Source: Chitinispirillum alkaliphilum (GTDB lineage Bacteria; Fibrobacterota; Chitinivibrionia; Chitinivibrionales; Chitinispirillaceae). Taken from it: a stretch of 64,000 nt of DNA. Location of the stretch: the NCBI GenBank assembly GCA_001045525.1, contig LDWW01000002.1, forward strand, positions 124,001-188,000, given 5' to 3'. The notes below the pieces were generated by a model. That model was given only the letters and a program-made list of their open reading frames with translations, was not told the origin of the DNA and did no database searches. The position numbers were made by a program, and so were the translations under genes. Below are positions 54,715-63,069 of the stretch, piece by piece. The first letter of the stretch is position 1, and each line of letters starts with the position of its first letter.

Positions 54715-55953
54715 TCAGAAACGGTATGTTGCACTAACACGTTTGAAAAGGTGGTGCTGAGGGCCACTGAAGAGATTTGTGAAAGTATAGGCTAAGTCTT
54801 CAGCTGCAACAAAGTCCACTCTGAACCTGTCTTCGATATTTACACCAAATCCAAGTCCCACCAGATCCTCATCAGAACCATCGGCTTCGGGATTTTCAAT
54901 CCATCTGCCTGAGTTAGGACCGTTTGTTGCATATCTGACGACTTTTTGTCCACCCACTCTTAAAACAAACCAGTCCCAAACCAGGTTTCTCTCAACACCG
55001 AAACTCACTCTTGCTCCATATGATTCTTCAGAATCAAATTCATGCCAGTCGTTTCTTGTGTAGAGTCCCTGCAGACCAGCAAAAAAGAACCCTCTGTCAA
55101 TATTCATGTTGAGTCCCAGCCCAGCTGCGAAATCGATCAGCCTTGTCTCACCATCCTGAAGATTGACCAGATTAAAAGAAGCCTGAGGTACTACAGCTCC
55201 GTTTATTGCAGGTACAGAAGCAAAAGATCTCAGATCCCCGCGAATAAACCAGTCCCTGTCTGCGATAGTTAACTCATTGTCATCTATTGTGCCGATACCA
55301 GTCAATAGACCAGCATTTACAGAAGCTTCAAGTTCAAGCCCAGGACCTACAGGAGACAATATACCCAGTGTTCCTTTGTAGACACCTGATTCAAAATCAA
55401 TATTGTTGTTTTCAGTTACTCTCTGATGTGCTAAGTAGAGTCCAGCCCCTATTGATACACCATTGCGCAGTGTGTATGAGCCGATCAGATCAACTCTTCC
55501 CACGGGACTTTCCAGATTTACATTTGAAGAATTATCGGGAAACGCTACAGGCATGTGTGTAGAAGCAACATTCCCATTTGCATCAAAAGTTTTTACAGGT
55601 GTGATATAATCGAGCATTCTGTCATGCCGATTGAAAACAGCAGCAAAAGAGATGAGTGAAGCCTCATCCTGTTCTGTGAACCGGTTTGAGATTATTGCAC
55701 CAAAGAAAGGTCTTTCAGCATCACGATTGAATCTGTTTAGAGCAGAAGACCTGTCTCCTTCTCTTTGTTGATATACACCAAAAGAACCATAAACCATGTT
55801 AGGATACAGATTTACAGTGGCAGGGTTAGTGAAAATACTGACCTCATCTCTATAGAAAGCATCATCCCTTCCCATCACCACAACGCGTGCGTCAGTTGCA
55901 TAACTGCTAATAACGCATCCAGCAGCAAGCATCAAAGCCAACACTTTGCCCAT
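54715..55953 (-). CDS. Outer-membrane barrel protein, PorV-like
   Basis: 412 residues with a signal peptide (MGKVLALMLAAGCVISSYAT) and beta-barrel strands ending VSATYRF, with terminal Phe. The N-terminus RVVVMGRDDAFYRDEVSIFT then NPATVNLYPNMVYGSFGVY recalls the TNPA motif of PorV/FadL-type proteins, and strands such as RVDLIGSYTLRNGVSIGAGL and FVLRVGGQKVVRY alternate polar and hydrophobic residues. The best ribosome site (GGAGG) is 7 bases before this ATG. It follows the AgmX-like gene by about 130 bases with a hairpin in between, so it may be a separate transcript but is probably the outer-membrane end of the same machine. Confidence 0.78.
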   Translation of the reverse strand: MGKVLALMLAAGCVISSYATDARVVVMGRDDAFYRDEVSIFTNPATVNLYPNMVYGSFGVYQQREGDRSSALNRFNRDAERPFFGAIISNRFTEQDEASLISFAAVFNRHDRMLDYITPVKTFDANGNVASTHMPVAFPDNSSNVNLESPVGRVDLIGSYTLRNGVSIGAGLYLAHQRVTENNNIDFESGVYKGTLGILSPVGPGLELEASVNAGLLTGIGTIDDNELTIADRDWFIRGDLRSFASVPAINGAVVPQASFNLVNLQDGETRLIDFAAGLGLNMNIDRGFFFAGLQGLYTRNDWHEFDSEESYGARVSFGVERNLVWDWFVLRVGGQKVVRYATNGPNSGRWIENPEADGSDEDLVGLGFGVNIEDRFRVDFVAAEDLAYTFTNLFSGPQHHLFKRVSATYRF

Positions 55954-56080: not shown

Positions 56081-56608
56081 TCATTGTGAGAATACGAAAG
56101 GATAGACGATCTCGGTAATATCTCCCGGTTGGTCAATCTGACCAAAATTCCATCTTCTTATTCTTTGAACAACCTGTTGTTCCAGAACAGAATCATTGAT
56201 AGTTGATTCTGTAACTTCGCAGTGAATGACTACTCCAAACTCATTAATAGCGAATTTAACAGTTATTCTTCCGGAAAGCCCGGGCTGATCTCTTAAACGT
56301 CTGTTATACTCATGCCTTAAAGATGCCATGTTCTGCTGAACAATCCGCTGAATACTTGCCCTGCTTCTTCCACCAGTTAAGGCACCACCCTGTGCTACAG
56401 GAGCAGTAACTTTTAGTTCACCGCGTGTTCTCATATCAAGATTACTACTACCGCCACTGGTCAAATTACCCATAAGGTCAGCAATTCCGCCACCGCCGCC
56501 GCCCATGCCACTTCCGTAGCCGGTACCGCCGGAACCGATACCAGTAACTCCCCTTCTACCAGCACCGCTGCTTCCACCGGTTTTCAGTCCGCCCGAACCC
56601 TGCATCAC
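56081..56608 (-). CDS. AgmX/PglI-type protein, C-terminal part (frameshifted)
   Basis: As annotated by open frame, this is a 175-residue piece starting at GTG. It is a Gly-rich linker (GTGYGSGMGGGGGGIADLMG) followed by an AgmX/PglI C-terminal domain, a TonB-like periplasmic unit: IQRIVQQNMASLRHEYNRRL, GRITVKFAINEFGVVIHCEV and LEQQVVQRIRRWNFGQIDQP. The piece has no signal or membrane segment and would not work alone. Extending the frame upstream meets no stop for 44 codons back to the G-tract at 56733-56742. With 11 G instead of 10 the chain reads continuously from the upstream gene, giving about 426 residues. AgmX-type proteins link an Exb/Tol motor to the outer membrane. Confidence 0.85.
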   Translation of the reverse strand: MMQGSGGLKTGGSSGAGRRGVTGIGSGGTGYGSGMGGGGGGIADLMGNLTSGGSSNLDMRTRGELKVTAPVAQGGALTGGRSRASIQRIVQQNMASLRHEYNRRLRDQPGLSGRITVKFAINEFGVVIHCEVTESTINDSVLEQQVVQRIRRWNFGQIDQPGDITEIVYPFVFSQ

Positions 56609-56613
56609 AGCAT

Positions 56614-57360
56614 CTAATCCGCTGGAGAAGCCACCTTCACCGAAGATGTCTGCAGAGGCGACAGATTTACCAGTGATCTCACCGGATATAATACCAAGTA
56701 CGCCTTTTTGTGTAGCTCTTTCACGTGGGTCTCCCCCCCCCCGGTAGACCTGCCAGAACCAGAGTTCTTCTGTTCTCTGAGGCTTTTCTGATCAGTTTGG
56801 ACCTCTTCCGGTTCCTCCTCCTTTTCCTCCAGAGTAGCATCGATCTCATCGGTTGTGATAAGCCTTGCAGTTCTCTCCTCGGGAAGTCGGTCAAAGAAGT
56901 CAGTTGCAACATCCACAATTTCCAGGGTAGTCATCCATACGCCCAGTGCGATTGCCAGGATAAGAACAACTATCTCAAGGTTTCTTAAACGGCTATCTTT
57001 TTCGAGAACGAAAATGTCTCCTCTCTCTTTAAGCCTCTGAGCATACTCTTCATCCGTAAGTACCCTTCCAGGTTCTTCCTCATCATCATCCACTGGGGGC
57101 CTGGCGGTATTAGCGTCTGGAGCAGCAGGAGCAGGTGCTCCCAGTTCCACTAATTCTACCTCAGCACCTATAGCGGTGAATTGAGAACGAACTCTGTTGG
57201 CTTCCTCTTCATCCGCTTCCTTGCGAATGCAGACCGGCTTTTTTGTGATGGCATTATACACCACCTCAAACTGGCTTCCGGACCACCGTGCTATCTCCTC
57301 TGCTATTCGGGTAGCACGCTGAGAGTCCTGGCATTTTTTAATAAGGATTTTGTACTTCAC
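56614..57360 (-). CDS. AgmX/PglI-type protein, N-terminal part (frameshifted)
   Basis: 248 residues as it stands. An N-terminal alpha/beta domain (KYKILIKKCQDSQRATRIAE ... QFTAIGAEVELVEL), an acidic linker, one membrane segment near 131-153 (LEIVVLILAIALGVWMTTLE), then a charged periplasmic stalk up to SGSGRSTGGG. After the G-tract the last 42 residues (from ETHVKELHKKAYLVLYP) are out of frame with the family and end at a stop. The correct continuation is in the other frame. GTG start, preceded by AAGGGATG, 2 bases after the ExbD stop. This is the cytoplasm- and membrane-side half of a TonB-like coupler. Confidence 0.85.
   Translation of the reverse strand: MKYKILIKKCQDSQRATRIAEEIARWSGSQFEVVYNAITKKPVCIRKEADEEEANRVRSQFTAIGAEVELVELGAPAPAAPDANTARPPVDDDEEEPGRVLTDEEYAQRLKERGDIFVLEKDSRLRNLEIVVLILAIALGVWMTTLEIVDVATDFFDRLPEERTARLITTDEIDATLEEKEEEPEEVQTDQKSLREQKNSGSGRSTGGGETHVKELHKKAYLVLYPVRSLVNLSPLQTSSVKVASPAD
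56733..56742 (-). repeat. 10-G homopolymer at the AgmX-like frameshift
   Basis: Ten consecutive G on the coding strand. With 10 G the frame ends in a stop 42 codons later; with 11 G it enters the Gly-rich AgmX-like frame (GDPRERATQKGVLGIISGE ...) without any stop; with 9 G it stops within a few codons. Either an assembly error or a slippery, phase-variable tract. Confidence 0.9.
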
Positions 57361-57362
57361 CG

Positions 57363-57863
57363 TTATTCATCCCTTTCCATGACAGCAAAGTTCATGTTAT
57401 TGTACCCGGCACTGCCACAAGTAAACATCACTTTAAAAAGCACATCAAATTCGATATTTTTATCTACCTGAATAACAATTTGCCCTCTGACAGCATCGAG
57501 TGAGTTTAAAGCAACCATCCTCTCTTCCTCAGCGTAGACTTCCTTGAGTCGTTCGTAAAGGTCCTGAACCATAGGAGCGTGCTCATCTTTTGGTATTTCT
57601 CGTACATCATCGGTGGGTATCAAAGGCTGATTGTCCAAAAGGATCATTTCATCGGTAACCGCCAACTGAAGGGATACCTCCTCTGGTCTGCGTTTTGATT
57701 CTGAGTTGGGCAAAACCAAATTGTCGGCATTGGTGACAAGTCCCCCCTCAGCAGAATAGTTTTGCAGGAGAAAGACAAGAAGAATAGTGAGCACATCAAG
57801 AAGGGAGGTTATATTAAACTCCCCCTCTTTCTTTTCTTTGTTATATCTACCATGACTGGCCAT
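57363..57863 (-). CDS. ExbD/TolR-like protein with the conserved Asp
   Basis: 166 residues: short cytoplasmic tail, one membrane segment with the proton-carrying Asp at residue 23 (FNITSLLDVLTILLVFLLQN), then a periplasmic domain ending with the family's IVIQVDKNIEFDVLFKVM. ExbD/TolR subunits sit inside an ExbB/TolQ pentamer and convert proton flow to movement. The start ATG follows GAGGAG and lies a single base after the upstream ExbD-like stop, so the pair is translationally coupled. Confidence 0.9.
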   Translation of the reverse strand: MASHGRYNKEKKEGEFNITSLLDVLTILLVFLLQNYSAEGGLVTNADNLVLPNSESKRRPEEVSLQLAVTDEMILLDNQPLIPTDDVREIPKDEHAPMVQDLYERLKEVYAEEERMVALNSLDAVRGQIVIQVDKNIEFDVLFKVMFTCGSAGYNNMNFAVMERDE

Positions 57864-57864
57864 A

Positions 57865-58653
57865 TCAACTCCTCAACTTGGATATGGAGATATTGGGAAA
57901 ATCCGCAGCTCTTGCGGCATCCATTATCTGAATTATTTTATCATAAATCACATAATTCTCGGCTGCGATAATGATATCTTCAATATCATCTGCATCGGGA
58001 TGTCGATCCTTTACCCTCATGAGCCTGTTTGTCAGCTCATCATATGCAGAAAGAGGTTGCAGAGTGAATTCAGAAGGATCATTTACCACAATCATTCTTC
58101 TTGGATTGGTAAGAGCATAAACGGTATCTCCCGCACTTACACTTCTTACAGGAGTGCCATCGACATCTGTGATCATTTCCCTATATCTGCTGTAAAGTGT
58201 TTCCAGAACCTCCCCGTCTTCGTCTGTGGTGTAGAGAAAAATCTCATCCCTTTCATACTTTGTAAACACAGTGTCTCTGTAGGGATTATGAGGCATCTCT
58301 CCCGGAACATGCCGTACGAGAGTGTCATTCATCGTTACTCTGCAGATATACCTGTGATACTCGTTGTAGTAAAGACTGGGCAAAAATCCACCTCTTGCAG
58401 CAAGAGTTACCAGTGAATCGGTGACAATGGCAGTAAGAATCAACTTATTGCTTTCGTCTCTCTCGTCGCGTTCGGTAACAGCTTCCCTGGGCTGAGATCC
58501 CCGTGATTCAGGTAGCCTGATATCGATAATGGATATTCTTGCGAATTCCGAGGTTACAAGAAGCATGGGAATCAGCACCACCATCAGGTTCATGAATGGT
58601 TTCAGATCCATTTCGCTGCTTTTAAAACTTTTCTTTCTTTTTTTATTTGCCAT
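57865..58653 (-). CDS. ExbD/TolR-like protein with Asn in place of the key Asp
   Basis: 262 residues, nearly twice the usual ExbD length. The N-terminal segment aligns without gaps to ExbD (LKPFMNLMVVLIPMLLVTSE) but has Asn22 where ExbD/TolR have the essential Asp, plus a Pro inside the helix. The periplasmic ExbD ending is present (IIIAAENYVIYDKIIQIMDA then ARAADF), separated from the membrane segment by about 110 extra residues (SLYYNEYHRYICRVTMNDTL, EIFLYTTDEDGEVLETLYSR). The extra part is unrecognised. It probably pairs with the neighbouring ExbD as a non-conducting partner. ATG after AGAGG. Confidence 0.87.
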   Translation of the reverse strand: MANKKRKKSFKSSEMDLKPFMNLMVVLIPMLLVTSEFARISIIDIRLPESRGSQPREAVTERDERDESNKLILTAIVTDSLVTLAARGGFLPSLYYNEYHRYICRVTMNDTLVRHVPGEMPHNPYRDTVFTKYERDEIFLYTTDEDGEVLETLYSRYREMITDVDGTPVRSVSAGDTVYALTNPRRMIVVNDPSEFTLQPLSAYDELTNRLMRVKDRHPDADDIEDIIIAAENYVIYDKIIQIMDAARAADFPNISISKLRS

Positions 58654-58678: not shown

Positions 58679-59305
58679 TTATTCTTCTACCAGGTTAATT
58701 AGTTTAGATGTTTTCTCATCCAACTCTTCGATAACACGGTCAGATTTTGTTGCGAGCAAACCATGAATCAGCAGAGTAGGAATAGCAGCAATAAGTCCGA
58801 AAAGGGTTGTTGACATGGCAACCGAGATACCGGTAGCGAGTGCCCCGGCCCTTTGAGCGGCAGGAACGTTTGCCACAGCATCAAAGGCGATCATCAGTCC
58901 GTAGATAGTTCCCATAAGACCAAGCAGAGTGGCAAGATTTGCCAGAGTGGGCATAATGGGGATATTTCGGCTGATTTTTGGAGCTTCTGTTAAAAACACT
59001 TCATCAACTGCTTTCTGCACAGCTTTTGTTCCCTTACCTCTGTTGGCAAGAATTACTTCAACACCTTTAGCCAGAGGGGTACCCTGTGCCCTAGAGTATT
59101 TAATCGCTTTATCATAGTCGCCAGCTTTCAGGAACTTCGAAATGTTGGCCATAAATACCCCTCGCTTGCTTCCGCATTTAAGGAACAGATACCAGACCCT
59201 TTCAATAATAAGTGCTAAACAGCCTGCAAATATAACAAGAATTGCCCACATTGCAAAACTACCCGGAGACACGAACCCATCAACAATAAACTTGAACAAC
59301 TGCAT
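58679..59305 (-). CDS. ExbB/TolQ/MotA-family proton channel protein
   Basis: 208 residues with the three-membrane-segment layout of ExbB/TolQ: residues about 15-37 (FAMWAILVIFAGCLALIIER), 118-142 (PTLANLATLLGLMGTIYGLM) and 155-180 (ATGISVAMSTTLFGLIAAIP). A long cytoplasmic loop with GTPLAKGVEVILANRGKG sits between. It forms the stator ring around the ExbD subunits and uses the proton gradient. AAAGGAG lies at good distance from the ATG. First of the four motor genes, followed in order by two ExbD and the AgmX-like gene, which fits an operon. Confidence 0.93.
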   Translation of the reverse strand: MQLFKFIVDGFVSPGSFAMWAILVIFAGCLALIIERVWYLFLKCGSKRGVFMANISKFLKAGDYDKAIKYSRAQGTPLAKGVEVILANRGKGTKAVQKAVDEVFLTEAPKISRNIPIMPTLANLATLLGLMGTIYGLMIAFDAVANVPAAQRAGALATGISVAMSTTLFGLIAAIPTLLIHGLLATKSDRVIEELDEKTSKLINLVEE

Positions 59306-59418: not shown

Positions 59419-62400
59419 TCAGCTGCCCCTGAGTACCCTTATTCTCTCCTCCTCAACTGAAATGTTACGTCTGGCTTCCGTTTCAATTCGGTTCAGCTGA
59501 CTGATCTTATCCTCAACAGGGATGTCCCTGTTCATGATATTCTGAATGCGCCGCATGTTTCTTTCAAACTCATGATCATCTATCCCAAATTCAGAAGATG
59601 CAACCGGATCCACTTCAGGTGTCCACTGCACGATCTCCACACCGAAAACCTCTGATCCCGGATGTATATATCTGATACGGTCCTTTATAGTTTCCACCCA
59701 TGGACTCTCAGCAATTCCTATCTCAGCTGCAGCCATTATACCCTCTTCATATTTTGGAAGAGCATGGTCCAAAGACTCAAGATATCTTTCTTCAAGAATC
59801 TGGCGGTAAACTTCCCGTTCATCCTCATCAAGCTCATCGGGAATCGGAGCGTTCTTGAAAGTGATACCGACCTCTTCCAGGATATGCCCCAGTCTGTACG
59901 CCATCTCCATATACCTGTCCATGGACTTGTTGATATACTCACCGGTGAAGTTCTGGGTTTTTGCCCATTCGATGTTCTGTAAAAAATAATCCTGGGCTCT
60001 GAGATAGTATGGCTCAAGGGTCATTAGCACCTGTATTTTGCCTGCGATCTGCTGATCAGCAGATCCAAACAGAGTCTGGTTTGCAACAGCCTCGGCCATA
60101 TCCACAAATCCCTGACCGACCATATACGTACTTCTCACAGTCCACTCCCGGATACCGAGTTCAATGGCACGTGCAAAGTACTGTGCGGGTTTGGCCAGCG
60201 CTTCTGTCTTCTGGTTTATTACTCTCTGCATTTCCCTTTCGTTTCTTGCAGTTAATTCAATTTCCATGAAGCGATTGTAATAGATCTGTCCGATTCTGTA
60301 AAAAGCCCTAGCGATGTTTTCAACATCGATATCGGCAGTTTCTTTGTATTCCTCGTAGACTTCAGTTGCCTTGAGGTAGTTTCTTTCGGCATCAGAGAAT
60401 CTCTTCAGTTCGAAGAAAGCGTCTCCGGCTCTTGTGAGTGCCTGGACCTGCTGATATCTGTCATGGGAATAAGTTTGTGCGAATTTCGAGAAAACCTCTG
60501 CCATTTTCTCATTTTCACCCAGATTCTCATAGCAAAGACCGATTGAGAACATTGCTTCAGATGCAAATTCATTGTCGGCATAGTTTTCCACAAGGATATT
60601 GTAGGTGTTAATAGCTTCCTGATAGTGATCCCCTTTTTCGAAAATCAATCCGGCATTATAGAGCGCCGGAGGTGTTTTTTCGTTGTCAGGGTACCGTTCA
60701 AAAACGAGTTTGTACATTTTTCCGGCCATATCATACATGTGCAGCTGCAGGTATGCATCTGAAGCATTTGAGAGTCTTGAGATCGCGTACTCAGAATCAT
60801 CAATCTGGTCTGCAGCAGCAAGATATACTTTTGCGGCTTCCTCATACATATCCGCCTTTTTGAAATTTTCCGCTGAGCGGACAAATGCCCCTTTAAGCAG
60901 CTCGGAGTTTGGGAAGTATTCTCCCATTTTAGCAAACGTTCTTGCTGCTGCAGGATAGTCGTTTGCCTCTTCATAGCTGATTGCAGCTTCTAACCATCCA
61001 TGGTCGGCAACATTACTTGTGGGGTAGTGTTCTCTTATAGACATAAAAATCTCAGCAGCACCGCTGTAATCCCTACGCTCACGCTGAGCTTCAGCATGTC
61101 TGTAGATTGAACCCGCAGCGAGGTCGATAATTTGATCATACTCTGTGGTGCCCGGTTCAGCCCTTGAGAGAAGCGTATTGTAAGAACTTAGAGCTCTGTC
61201 GTACTGTCCTGCAAAAGAGTAGGAGTTTGCCATCATACGCATAGCCATCGGCGCAATTTCTGTTTCAGAATACTCTTCCACAATCCTTTTGAAAGTTGCA
61301 ATAGCCATATCATAGGCCTTGCTTTCGTAGTGGATATTGGCAGCCAGATAGAGTACATCGGCAGCATTTTCGCTTGTGGGGAATCTCTCCACAAAGGTAT
61401 CGACATAATTGATCAGATCCCTTGTCTCACGAAGTGAATATGCCTGCTCATCATTCATTCCCTCCGCAGCCATAGTCCGCTTGCGGTTATTATCCAGGGC
61501 TACAATGACGTTGAATGCAGCATCTTCCTGCGAGATTTCAATAGGACTTGTTGCATCACCCATTTCAGATCTTCTGCGTGCAAGCTCTTCGGGGTCCATA
61601 CCCAGAGTATCTATACTTTCCCTGAATTCAGGATATGTTGAGAGATCCTGCCTTGCCACAAAATCGTAATTTTCGGCAGCATTCACATAATCTCCCAGGT
61701 GACTGTAAATTTCTGCAAGATTATACCGAAACTCGTAAATTTTCCATTTTTCATCGGGGAATCTCTCGAAAAACTCAAGATATCGCTGTTTTGCTTTTTC
61801 GTAATAAGACCTTTCACGTCGGTTTTGAGCACGAGCATGGTAGTAGATAGCAATATTACCCAGAGCGTTTTTCATTGCCTCGTTTGCTTTGTCGATTACA
61901 ACTCTCTCATTTCTGTTCATTGAATGCCACTGGCTTCCCGGTTTGTAATCATCAACAAGGCGCTCTCTTTCAACATTTGCCCTCTCTGCTTCTCTTTTAA
62001 TCACAAAGCTCTCAATGAGATACTGCTGGGCAATGGGAGCTTGTGCATGCATAGGGTATCTTTCAAGAGCGATTGTAAGAGCGTTTATAGCATCATCAAA
62101 CTGACCGTGAGTGTAGTTTTTTTCACCTATCATGTAGAGAACATCGGCTATATAGGGTCTGTCGCCGACTTTTCTGAAGTAATCCAAAGCTTCCTGGGCT
62201 CCATCAGCCATGTCGGAGAAAGAGATTGCCATAAATTCCAGTGCCATATCGCGGAAATCCTGTCTTCCGTATCTTCCGGAATCACACTCCTCAACATATG
62301 AGTGAAACAGCTCCACAGCCCTGTCGAAATCCCCTATATTATAGTATATTTCAGCTTTACGATAGTGAACCATTTCCCATGTTCTGGGATCGATTTCATT

Positions 62401-63069
62401 TCTCCTTATTTCCTTAAGGTATCTTAGAGCCTGCATATTATTGTGCTCAAGGTATTCGAAATCAGCGAGACGAAAGTAAGCAGCTGAGGCACGCGGATCG
62501 TTGGGGAATCTTTCGACCAGTCTCAAAAACCACTCACGTGATTCGTCGAAATTTGCTCCGATGAGGTTAATATTTCCGATCTGGTAATAAGCTTCACTGG
62601 CACGGGAGAACTCCGGATACTCCTCAACGAGCCTTCTGTACATTTGAATTGGCTTGCTGTAATCTGGTCGGGGATCGACCGGTTGTGGTCCAACGGGCCT
62701 TCTCTCCCATTCATCCATTTCTGTTTCATATCTTTCCCTTGCCCTTATAAACTCATCCCTTGCCTGGTCGTAGTACAATGATCCCAAAGTGAACATCACA
62801 TCGGCACACCGGTCCGATCTTCTCTGAGAGCATCCATCAAGGAGTCTTTCATATCTTTCAATAACATCTTCCAAGCTACTGCCAGAACGGCGTGTCTGAC
62901 CAGTTGTAGTCCGTCTTTGCTCTTGCGCATCTCTCTGTCGTTCTTCCAGCTCTCTGATTCTTTGCTCAAGTTCCTCTCTTGATTGTCCCTGAACCGATTC
63001 CGGAAACATCAATAAGCCGGTAATCATAAGAGATGAAAGAAATAATACAGTACATTTCATGATGTTCAT
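59419..63069 (-). CDS. Very large secreted TPR protein
   Basis: 1216 residues. Signal peptide (MNIMKCTVLFLSSLMITG then LLMFPESVQGQ), a short coiled coil (REELEQRIRELEERQRDAQE), then tetratricopeptide repeats over almost the full length, e.g. PIQMYRRLVEEYPEFSRASE, ESREWFLRLVERFPNDPRAS, AYDMAIATFKRIVEEYSETE, AISYEEANDYPAAARTFAKM, AINTYNILVENYADNEFASE. A small coil ends the chain. Size, repeats and position beside Exb-like genes resemble the Myxococcus gliding protein AgmK/GltI. It would be a periplasmic scaffold linking the inner-membrane motor to the outer-membrane partner. The ATG follows AAGGAG. It begins 34 bases after the partial TPR gene, so the two are cotranscribed. Confidence 0.88.
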   Translation of the reverse strand: MNIMKCTVLFLSSLMITGLLMFPESVQGQSREELEQRIRELEERQRDAQEQRRTTTGQTRRSGSSLEDVIERYERLLDGCSQRRSDRCADVMFTLGSLYYDQARDEFIRARERYETEMDEWERRPVGPQPVDPRPDYSKPIQMYRRLVEEYPEFSRASEAYYQIGNINLIGANFDESREWFLRLVERFPNDPRASAAYFRLADFEYLEHNNMQALRYLKEIRRNEIDPRTWEMVHYRKAEIYYNIGDFDRAVELFHSYVEECDSGRYGRQDFRDMALEFMAISFSDMADGAQEALDYFRKVGDRPYIADVLYMIGEKNYTHGQFDDAINALTIALERYPMHAQAPIAQQYLIESFVIKREAERANVERERLVDDYKPGSQWHSMNRNERVVIDKANEAMKNALGNIAIYYHARAQNRRERSYYEKAKQRYLEFFERFPDEKWKIYEFRYNLAEIYSHLGDYVNAAENYDFVARQDLSTYPEFRESIDTLGMDPEELARRRSEMGDATSPIEISQEDAAFNVIVALDNNRKRTMAAEGMNDEQAYSLRETRDLINYVDTFVERFPTSENAADVLYLAANIHYESKAYDMAIATFKRIVEEYSETEIAPMAMRMMANSYSFAGQYDRALSSYNTLLSRAEPGTTEYDQIIDLAAGSIYRHAEAQRERRDYSGAAEIFMSIREHYPTSNVADHGWLEAAISYEEANDYPAAARTFAKMGEYFPNSELLKGAFVRSAENFKKADMYEEAAKVYLAAADQIDDSEYAISRLSNASDAYLQLHMYDMAGKMYKLVFERYPDNEKTPPALYNAGLIFEKGDHYQEAINTYNILVENYADNEFASEAMFSIGLCYENLGENEKMAEVFSKFAQTYSHDRYQQVQALTRAGDAFFELKRFSDAERNYLKATEVYEEYKETADIDVENIARAFYRIGQIYYNRFMEIELTARNEREMQRVINQKTEALAKPAQYFARAIELGIREWTVRSTYMVGQGFVDMAEAVANQTLFGSADQQIAGKIQVLMTLEPYYLRAQDYFLQNIEWAKTQNFTGEYINKSMDRYMEMAYRLGHILEEVGITFKNAPIPDELDEDEREVYRQILEERYLESLDHALPKYEEGIMAAAEIGIAESPWVETIKDRIRYIHPGSEVFGVEIVQWTPEVDPVASSEFGIDDHEFERNMRRIQNIMNRDIPVEDKISQLNRIETEARRNISVEEERIRVLRGS

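Follow-up and report, generated by a model that had tools for sequence, protein, structure and literature searches.

Is the run of ten guanines that breaks a GltG-like gene of Chitinispirillum alkaliphilum a feature of the organism, or a miscount in the deposited sequence? The gene lies in a stretch of 64,000 nucleotides of contig LDWW01000002.1 (hereafter the window), whose GC content is 41-45%. The deposited sequence has exactly 10 G at positions 56742-56733 on the minus strand, and a coding-potential scan mapped the switch of reading frame to this G10 tract (56733-56742). The 5' part of the gene (56743-57360, minus strand) begins with a GTG start and runs for 206 codons up to the tract. It encodes an L7/L12 C-terminal-domain-like cytoplasmic domain, one transmembrane helix and a charged linker, as assigned from the orthologue alignment, the orthologue model and a weak Pfam L12 match. 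The deposited open frame of 248 amino acids (56614-57360, minus strand), which contains the transmembrane helix, continues past the tract into an out-of-frame tail. The 3' part (56081-56732, minus strand) lies in another frame of 236 open codons and carries a DPRERA motif, a Gly-rich segment, the AgmX/PglI or TonB_C domain and the stop codon, so that the TonB-like C-terminal domain is found in the downstream frame. When one base was added at the tract, the junction was free of stops and read GDPRERATQKGVLGIISGE and SADIFGEGGFSSGLDAVMQG. Both the break between the two minus-strand frames and the stop-free junction had been described in the initial annotation, and both are borne out by the deposited sequence.

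We then compared the two frames with their relatives. The C-terminal half found matches in 59 of 61 genomes, its own included, and each complete orthologue is encoded in one uninterrupted frame of about 430-480 codons. In a joint alignment of 27 orthologous copies, each continuous, both halves fell within one protein, in agreement with the earlier proposal that the two frames form a single AgmX/PglI-type product. The position of the tract corresponds to a Gly-Asp-Pro motif in all 27 copies, which reads GGGGDPRAR in most of them and varies only slightly elsewhere (three or five Gly; DPRER or DPRSR). Codons at the motif differ among the orthologues and the longest G run is 5; no G tract was present at the motif in any of the 27 copies, which include the same genus and contain none from a second strain of the species. 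Alignment at the DNA level with the orthologue of the same-genus relative, a Chitinispirillum MAG (G001), showed that the window is one base short, within the tract. A pairing of the frames by chance is ruled out on this comparison, since both halves align with one protein in 27 copies and the alignment with G001 needs one missing base; judged by sequence, the halves belong to one protein. The downstream frame was also considered as a separate protein made from an internal start. This candidate was rejected, as such a protein would have no membrane anchor, no promoter-like site was seen nearby, and the relatives lack the break.

The flanking genes, all on the minus strand, form a run in the order TPR, ExbB, ExbD, ExbD, with the GltG-like gene last. 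The run contains a 1216-aa TPR (YbgF/BamD-like) protein upstream (59419-63069), a MotA/TolQ/ExbB-like proton channel subunit (58679-59305; PF01618, 5.4e-24), and two copies of an ExbD/TolR-like stator subunit, the first at 57865-58653 (PF02472, 1.3e-13) and the second at 57363-57863 (PF02472, 3.5e-15). Directly downstream of the GltG-like gene is a porin-like outer-membrane protein (54715-55950, minus strand), whose match to NF053618 PopA (2.8e-06) is below the cut-off.

The identity of the protein was examined by profile searches and by a structure model of the G001 orthologue. With 80.7 bits, its C-terminal domain is well over the cut-off of 40 for the AgmX/PglI C-terminal model NF033768, and it also passes the TonB-family models TIGR01352 (35.7 against 27.1 bits) and PF03544 (24.9 against 24.6 bits). 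GltG (= PglI; NF033760) was a longer profile match, with 94 bits over positions 453-647, and when each half was scanned alone the scores of 84-94 bits missed its equivalog cut-off of 650 bits. Passing NF033768 (myxo_SS_tail) assigns the protein to a domain family only and is silent on function; five other proteins of the genome carry the same domain over the cut-off. The model of the G001 orthologue had a mean pLDDT of 60, rising to about 90 in the two end domains. It begins with a beta-alpha-alpha-beta-alpha-beta domain of about 75 residues. A long helix then covers the membrane span, the Gly-rich middle is without structure, and the C-terminal end is TonB-like. With Foldseek, the C-terminal end of this model best matched TonB C-terminal domains (E about 2e-3) and the N-terminal start matched 1ctf, the C-terminal domain of L7/L12, with a target TM-score of 0.81; no match of either end reached E 0.001. 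In the window the corresponding N-terminal domain (57139-57360, minus strand) is L7/L12 C-terminal-domain-like, from a Pfam match below the cut-off and the 1ctf fold match of the G001 orthologue. A sequence search of solved structures gave no match, and a profile search of the N-terminal part gave no match to an FHA domain, the L7/L12-type fold standing there instead.

These features resemble those of GltG (PglI) in the Agl-Glt system of Myxococcus xanthus, which likewise combines a single transmembrane helix, a Gly-rich periplasmic segment and a TonB-like end, and the ExbB-like and two ExbD-like neighbours would correspond to AglRQS-like partners. The protein differs in scoring far below the 650-bit cut-off and in having a cytoplasmic domain that is L7/L12-CTD-like by fold, whereas Myxococcus GltG has an FHA domain in the cytoplasmic position (PMC3169522). 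For this reason, as modelled, the gene product is a GltG-like protein with a different cytoplasmic domain, rather than a proven GltG equivalog. The Agl-Glt system is a gliding machinery, and C. alkaliphilum is not known to glide. One member of the Fibrobacteres has already been reported to carry core gltG/aglRQS homologues (PMC3169522). The TonB/TolA transducers (PF03544, TIGR01352) share the C-terminal fold and the adjacent ExbB/ExbD partners, but the GltG-like protein has in addition a cytoplasmic domain at its N-terminus and a linker that is long, conserved and rich in Gly. TonB is not known to have either of these.

The way in which the genome was read bears directly on the break. Roche GS FLX Titanium was the only platform used for the genome of strain ACht6-1 (4.43 Mb, 160 contigs, 42.9% GC), and the 334,162 reads, of 554 b each, were assembled by Newbler 2.6 (PMC4814513). 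The assembly totals 4,434,773 b in 160 contigs, from which we computed a read depth of about 42x; it was thus obtained on a platform prone to homopolymer errors and without polishing. The 454 signal attenuates along long runs (PMC3534400), and homopolymer errors were found in 2.1-2.8% of genes in 454 metagenome contigs (PMC3277595). For E. coli genomes of the same chemistry and assembler, one report describes the Newbler consensus error at homopolymers up to 9 long as rising with length by 4e-8*exp(1.707x), at about 20-50x (PMC3045373). Applied here, this fit gives about 19% at length 9, if it is taken as a fraction, as the counts of that report suggest, and reaches saturation at 10 by extrapolation. 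The break resembles known Roche 454/Newbler indels in that a long homopolymer would be off by a single base and a conserved gene is disrupted there. Since 454 miscounts such runs and the genome was read by it, a reading error is the most likely source of the break.

We further searched for similar breaks by scanning for frame switches in about 0.86 Mb of the genome and in the stretches around all listed G/C runs of at least 9. A second break was found at a G9 tract (L117:1311-1319; G000:C30:16311-16319), which splits the gene of a large secreted beta-helix-like protein; in five relatives its two halves follow each other within a single frame. Together with the 454-only assembly and the one-base deficit against G001, this second split gene supports the homopolymer miscall, which the initial annotation had rightly named as an alternative to a biological switch. 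By eye, about 14 further G/C tracts of 9-10 inside long frames keep the reading frame, including two of length 10, so the assembler does not always fail at such tracts; about 2 of 16 broken is in the range expected for the platform. Most of the inspected frame switches at short homopolymers were ordinary gene boundaries and were not counted.

Several other tracts were recorded along the way. An A9 run (L090:18300-18308; G000:C1) separates a 414-aa frame, whose family has some 20 matches in the genome, from a frame of 86 aa that weakly matches a T9SS sorting domain. It is possibly another homopolymer frame error, a weaker case than that on C30. A short MT-A70 methyltransferase-like fragment (PF05063, 3.2e-07) has a 14-G tract (L117:11432-11445; G000:C30:26432-26445) at its start. 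Of the G runs listed for the genome, the longest has 18 G (L114:14213-14230; G000:C6:114213-114230) and is outside confident genes. Among the relatives, three genomes of one genus and under 3 Mb (G018, G010 and G015) have hundreds of nine-G placements. A scan of viral contigs found no relative.

The initial annotation had also raised phase variation. In this interpretation a genuine G tract changes in length by slipped-strand events, cells of one population differ in whether the coupler is on or off, and an off state was captured in the deposited sequence. Phase-variable contingency loci with poly-G tracts do occur, for example in Campylobacter, and the present locus is like them in having a G tract of about 10 within a coding region, here of an envelope gene. 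The second G-tract break, in the secreted beta-helix protein, could be read in the same way, and G/C tracts of at least 10 are about twice as frequent as an order-3 model predicts (14 in the 4.43-Mb genome, for which scaling up the roughly 1.2 predicted in 864 kb gives about 6). However, the tract is not conserved at this site, since none of the 27 copies, same genus included, has more than 5 G in a row at the motif. Most tracts of at least 10 lie outside confident genes, most long coding tracts are in frame, and the 454 platform cannot separate length variants from miscalls. G001 had at one point been taken for a G-tract-rich genome from 179 nine-base placements, a view that was dropped as only one G/C run of at least 9 occurs in the 281 kb sampled. 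We therefore regard phase variation as very improbable. The same holds for the broader proposal that a real, mutable G10 tract switches the TonB-like coupler of an Agl-Glt-type envelope motor by phase variation, perhaps along with surface proteins such as the C30 beta-helix protein.

The tract had also been suggested to yield truncated and full forms by productive slippage. If the strain truly has 10 G, a share of the ribosomes or RNA polymerases would slip by -1 at the run and make a full-length protein beside the truncated one. The run does present zero-frame GGG GGG codons and the required shift is -1. Against this, no RNA stimulator of frameshifting was found around the tract, where the RNA folds no better than shuffled sequences (z = +0.48), and the relatives are without the tract, which leaves no conserved signal. 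Programmed or tolerated slippage thus appears extremely unlikely. Taken together, the 454-only platform, the lack of the tract in relatives, the second gene split in the same way and the absence of a slippage signal leave the proposed on/off switch of the coupler unsupported.

A fixed frameshift required closer inspection, on the basis of the substitutions in the two halves of the gene. In this explanation the 10 G of the strain are real, the TonB-like end has become separated from its membrane anchor, and what remains is a recently formed pseudogene, whose loss the five other proteins with an AgmX/PglI domain over the cut-off may cover. When changes were assigned to branches with G006 as outgroup, the downstream half of the window gene had 29 amino-acid changes against 8 on the G001 branch (p = 0.0008), and five other outgroups gave 26-28 against 6-11 (p 0.0002-0.011). 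In the upstream half the changes were 22 to 21; those in ExbB were even as well, and the first ExbD was marginally faster with some outgroups. By this measure the faster change of the downstream half tends to suggest relaxed constraint, and no other observation speaks as strongly against a pure error. Other features of the same half point the other way. Its dN/dS against G001 is about 0.05, with dS saturated, third-position changes dominate, no further stop or indel occurs in about 216 codons, and the amino acids replaced along the window branch were exchanged much more conservatively than expected from random mutation (P <= 0.0005). Such purifying selection on the window branch argues against an old pseudogene, which on these sequence data is unlikely, whereas a very recent one is possible. 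The genus Chitinispirillum has changed about 12 otherwise conserved sites in the Gly-rich and TonB-like half, and the window lineage 15 more. As the 12 or so were already altered in the ancestor of the genus, the faster change predates any break. With the gene whole in nearly all relatives besides, we consider a real, fixed and recent frameshift unlikely, though less so than a switch or slippage.

We are thus fairly confident that the locus holds an intact GltG-like motor-coupler gene with a one-base homopolymer miscall. The pyrosequencing consensus would have counted the G run in consecutive Gly codons one base short, the true run would be of the in-frame length, and the frame break would be absent from the organism. 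The gene would then encode an intact GltG-like protein of about 425 residues, AgmX/PglI-like at its C-terminus and of the TonB family. Its cytoplasmic domain would be followed by one transmembrane helix and then by a long periplasmic linker rich in Gly, which leads to the TonB-like end. From what its family suggests, this protein would couple the ion-driven ExbB/ExbD motor to the outer membrane.

The public genome of C. alkaliphilum therefore probably bears homopolymer frame errors in conserved genes, and split genes or gene losses in it should be checked before use. Were the break real and variable, phase variation would act on a trans-envelope motor coupler, which would be unusual. The gene product is a GltG-like coupler, with a cytoplasmic domain of the L7/L12 type, that is common to the relatives in the Fibrobacterota.
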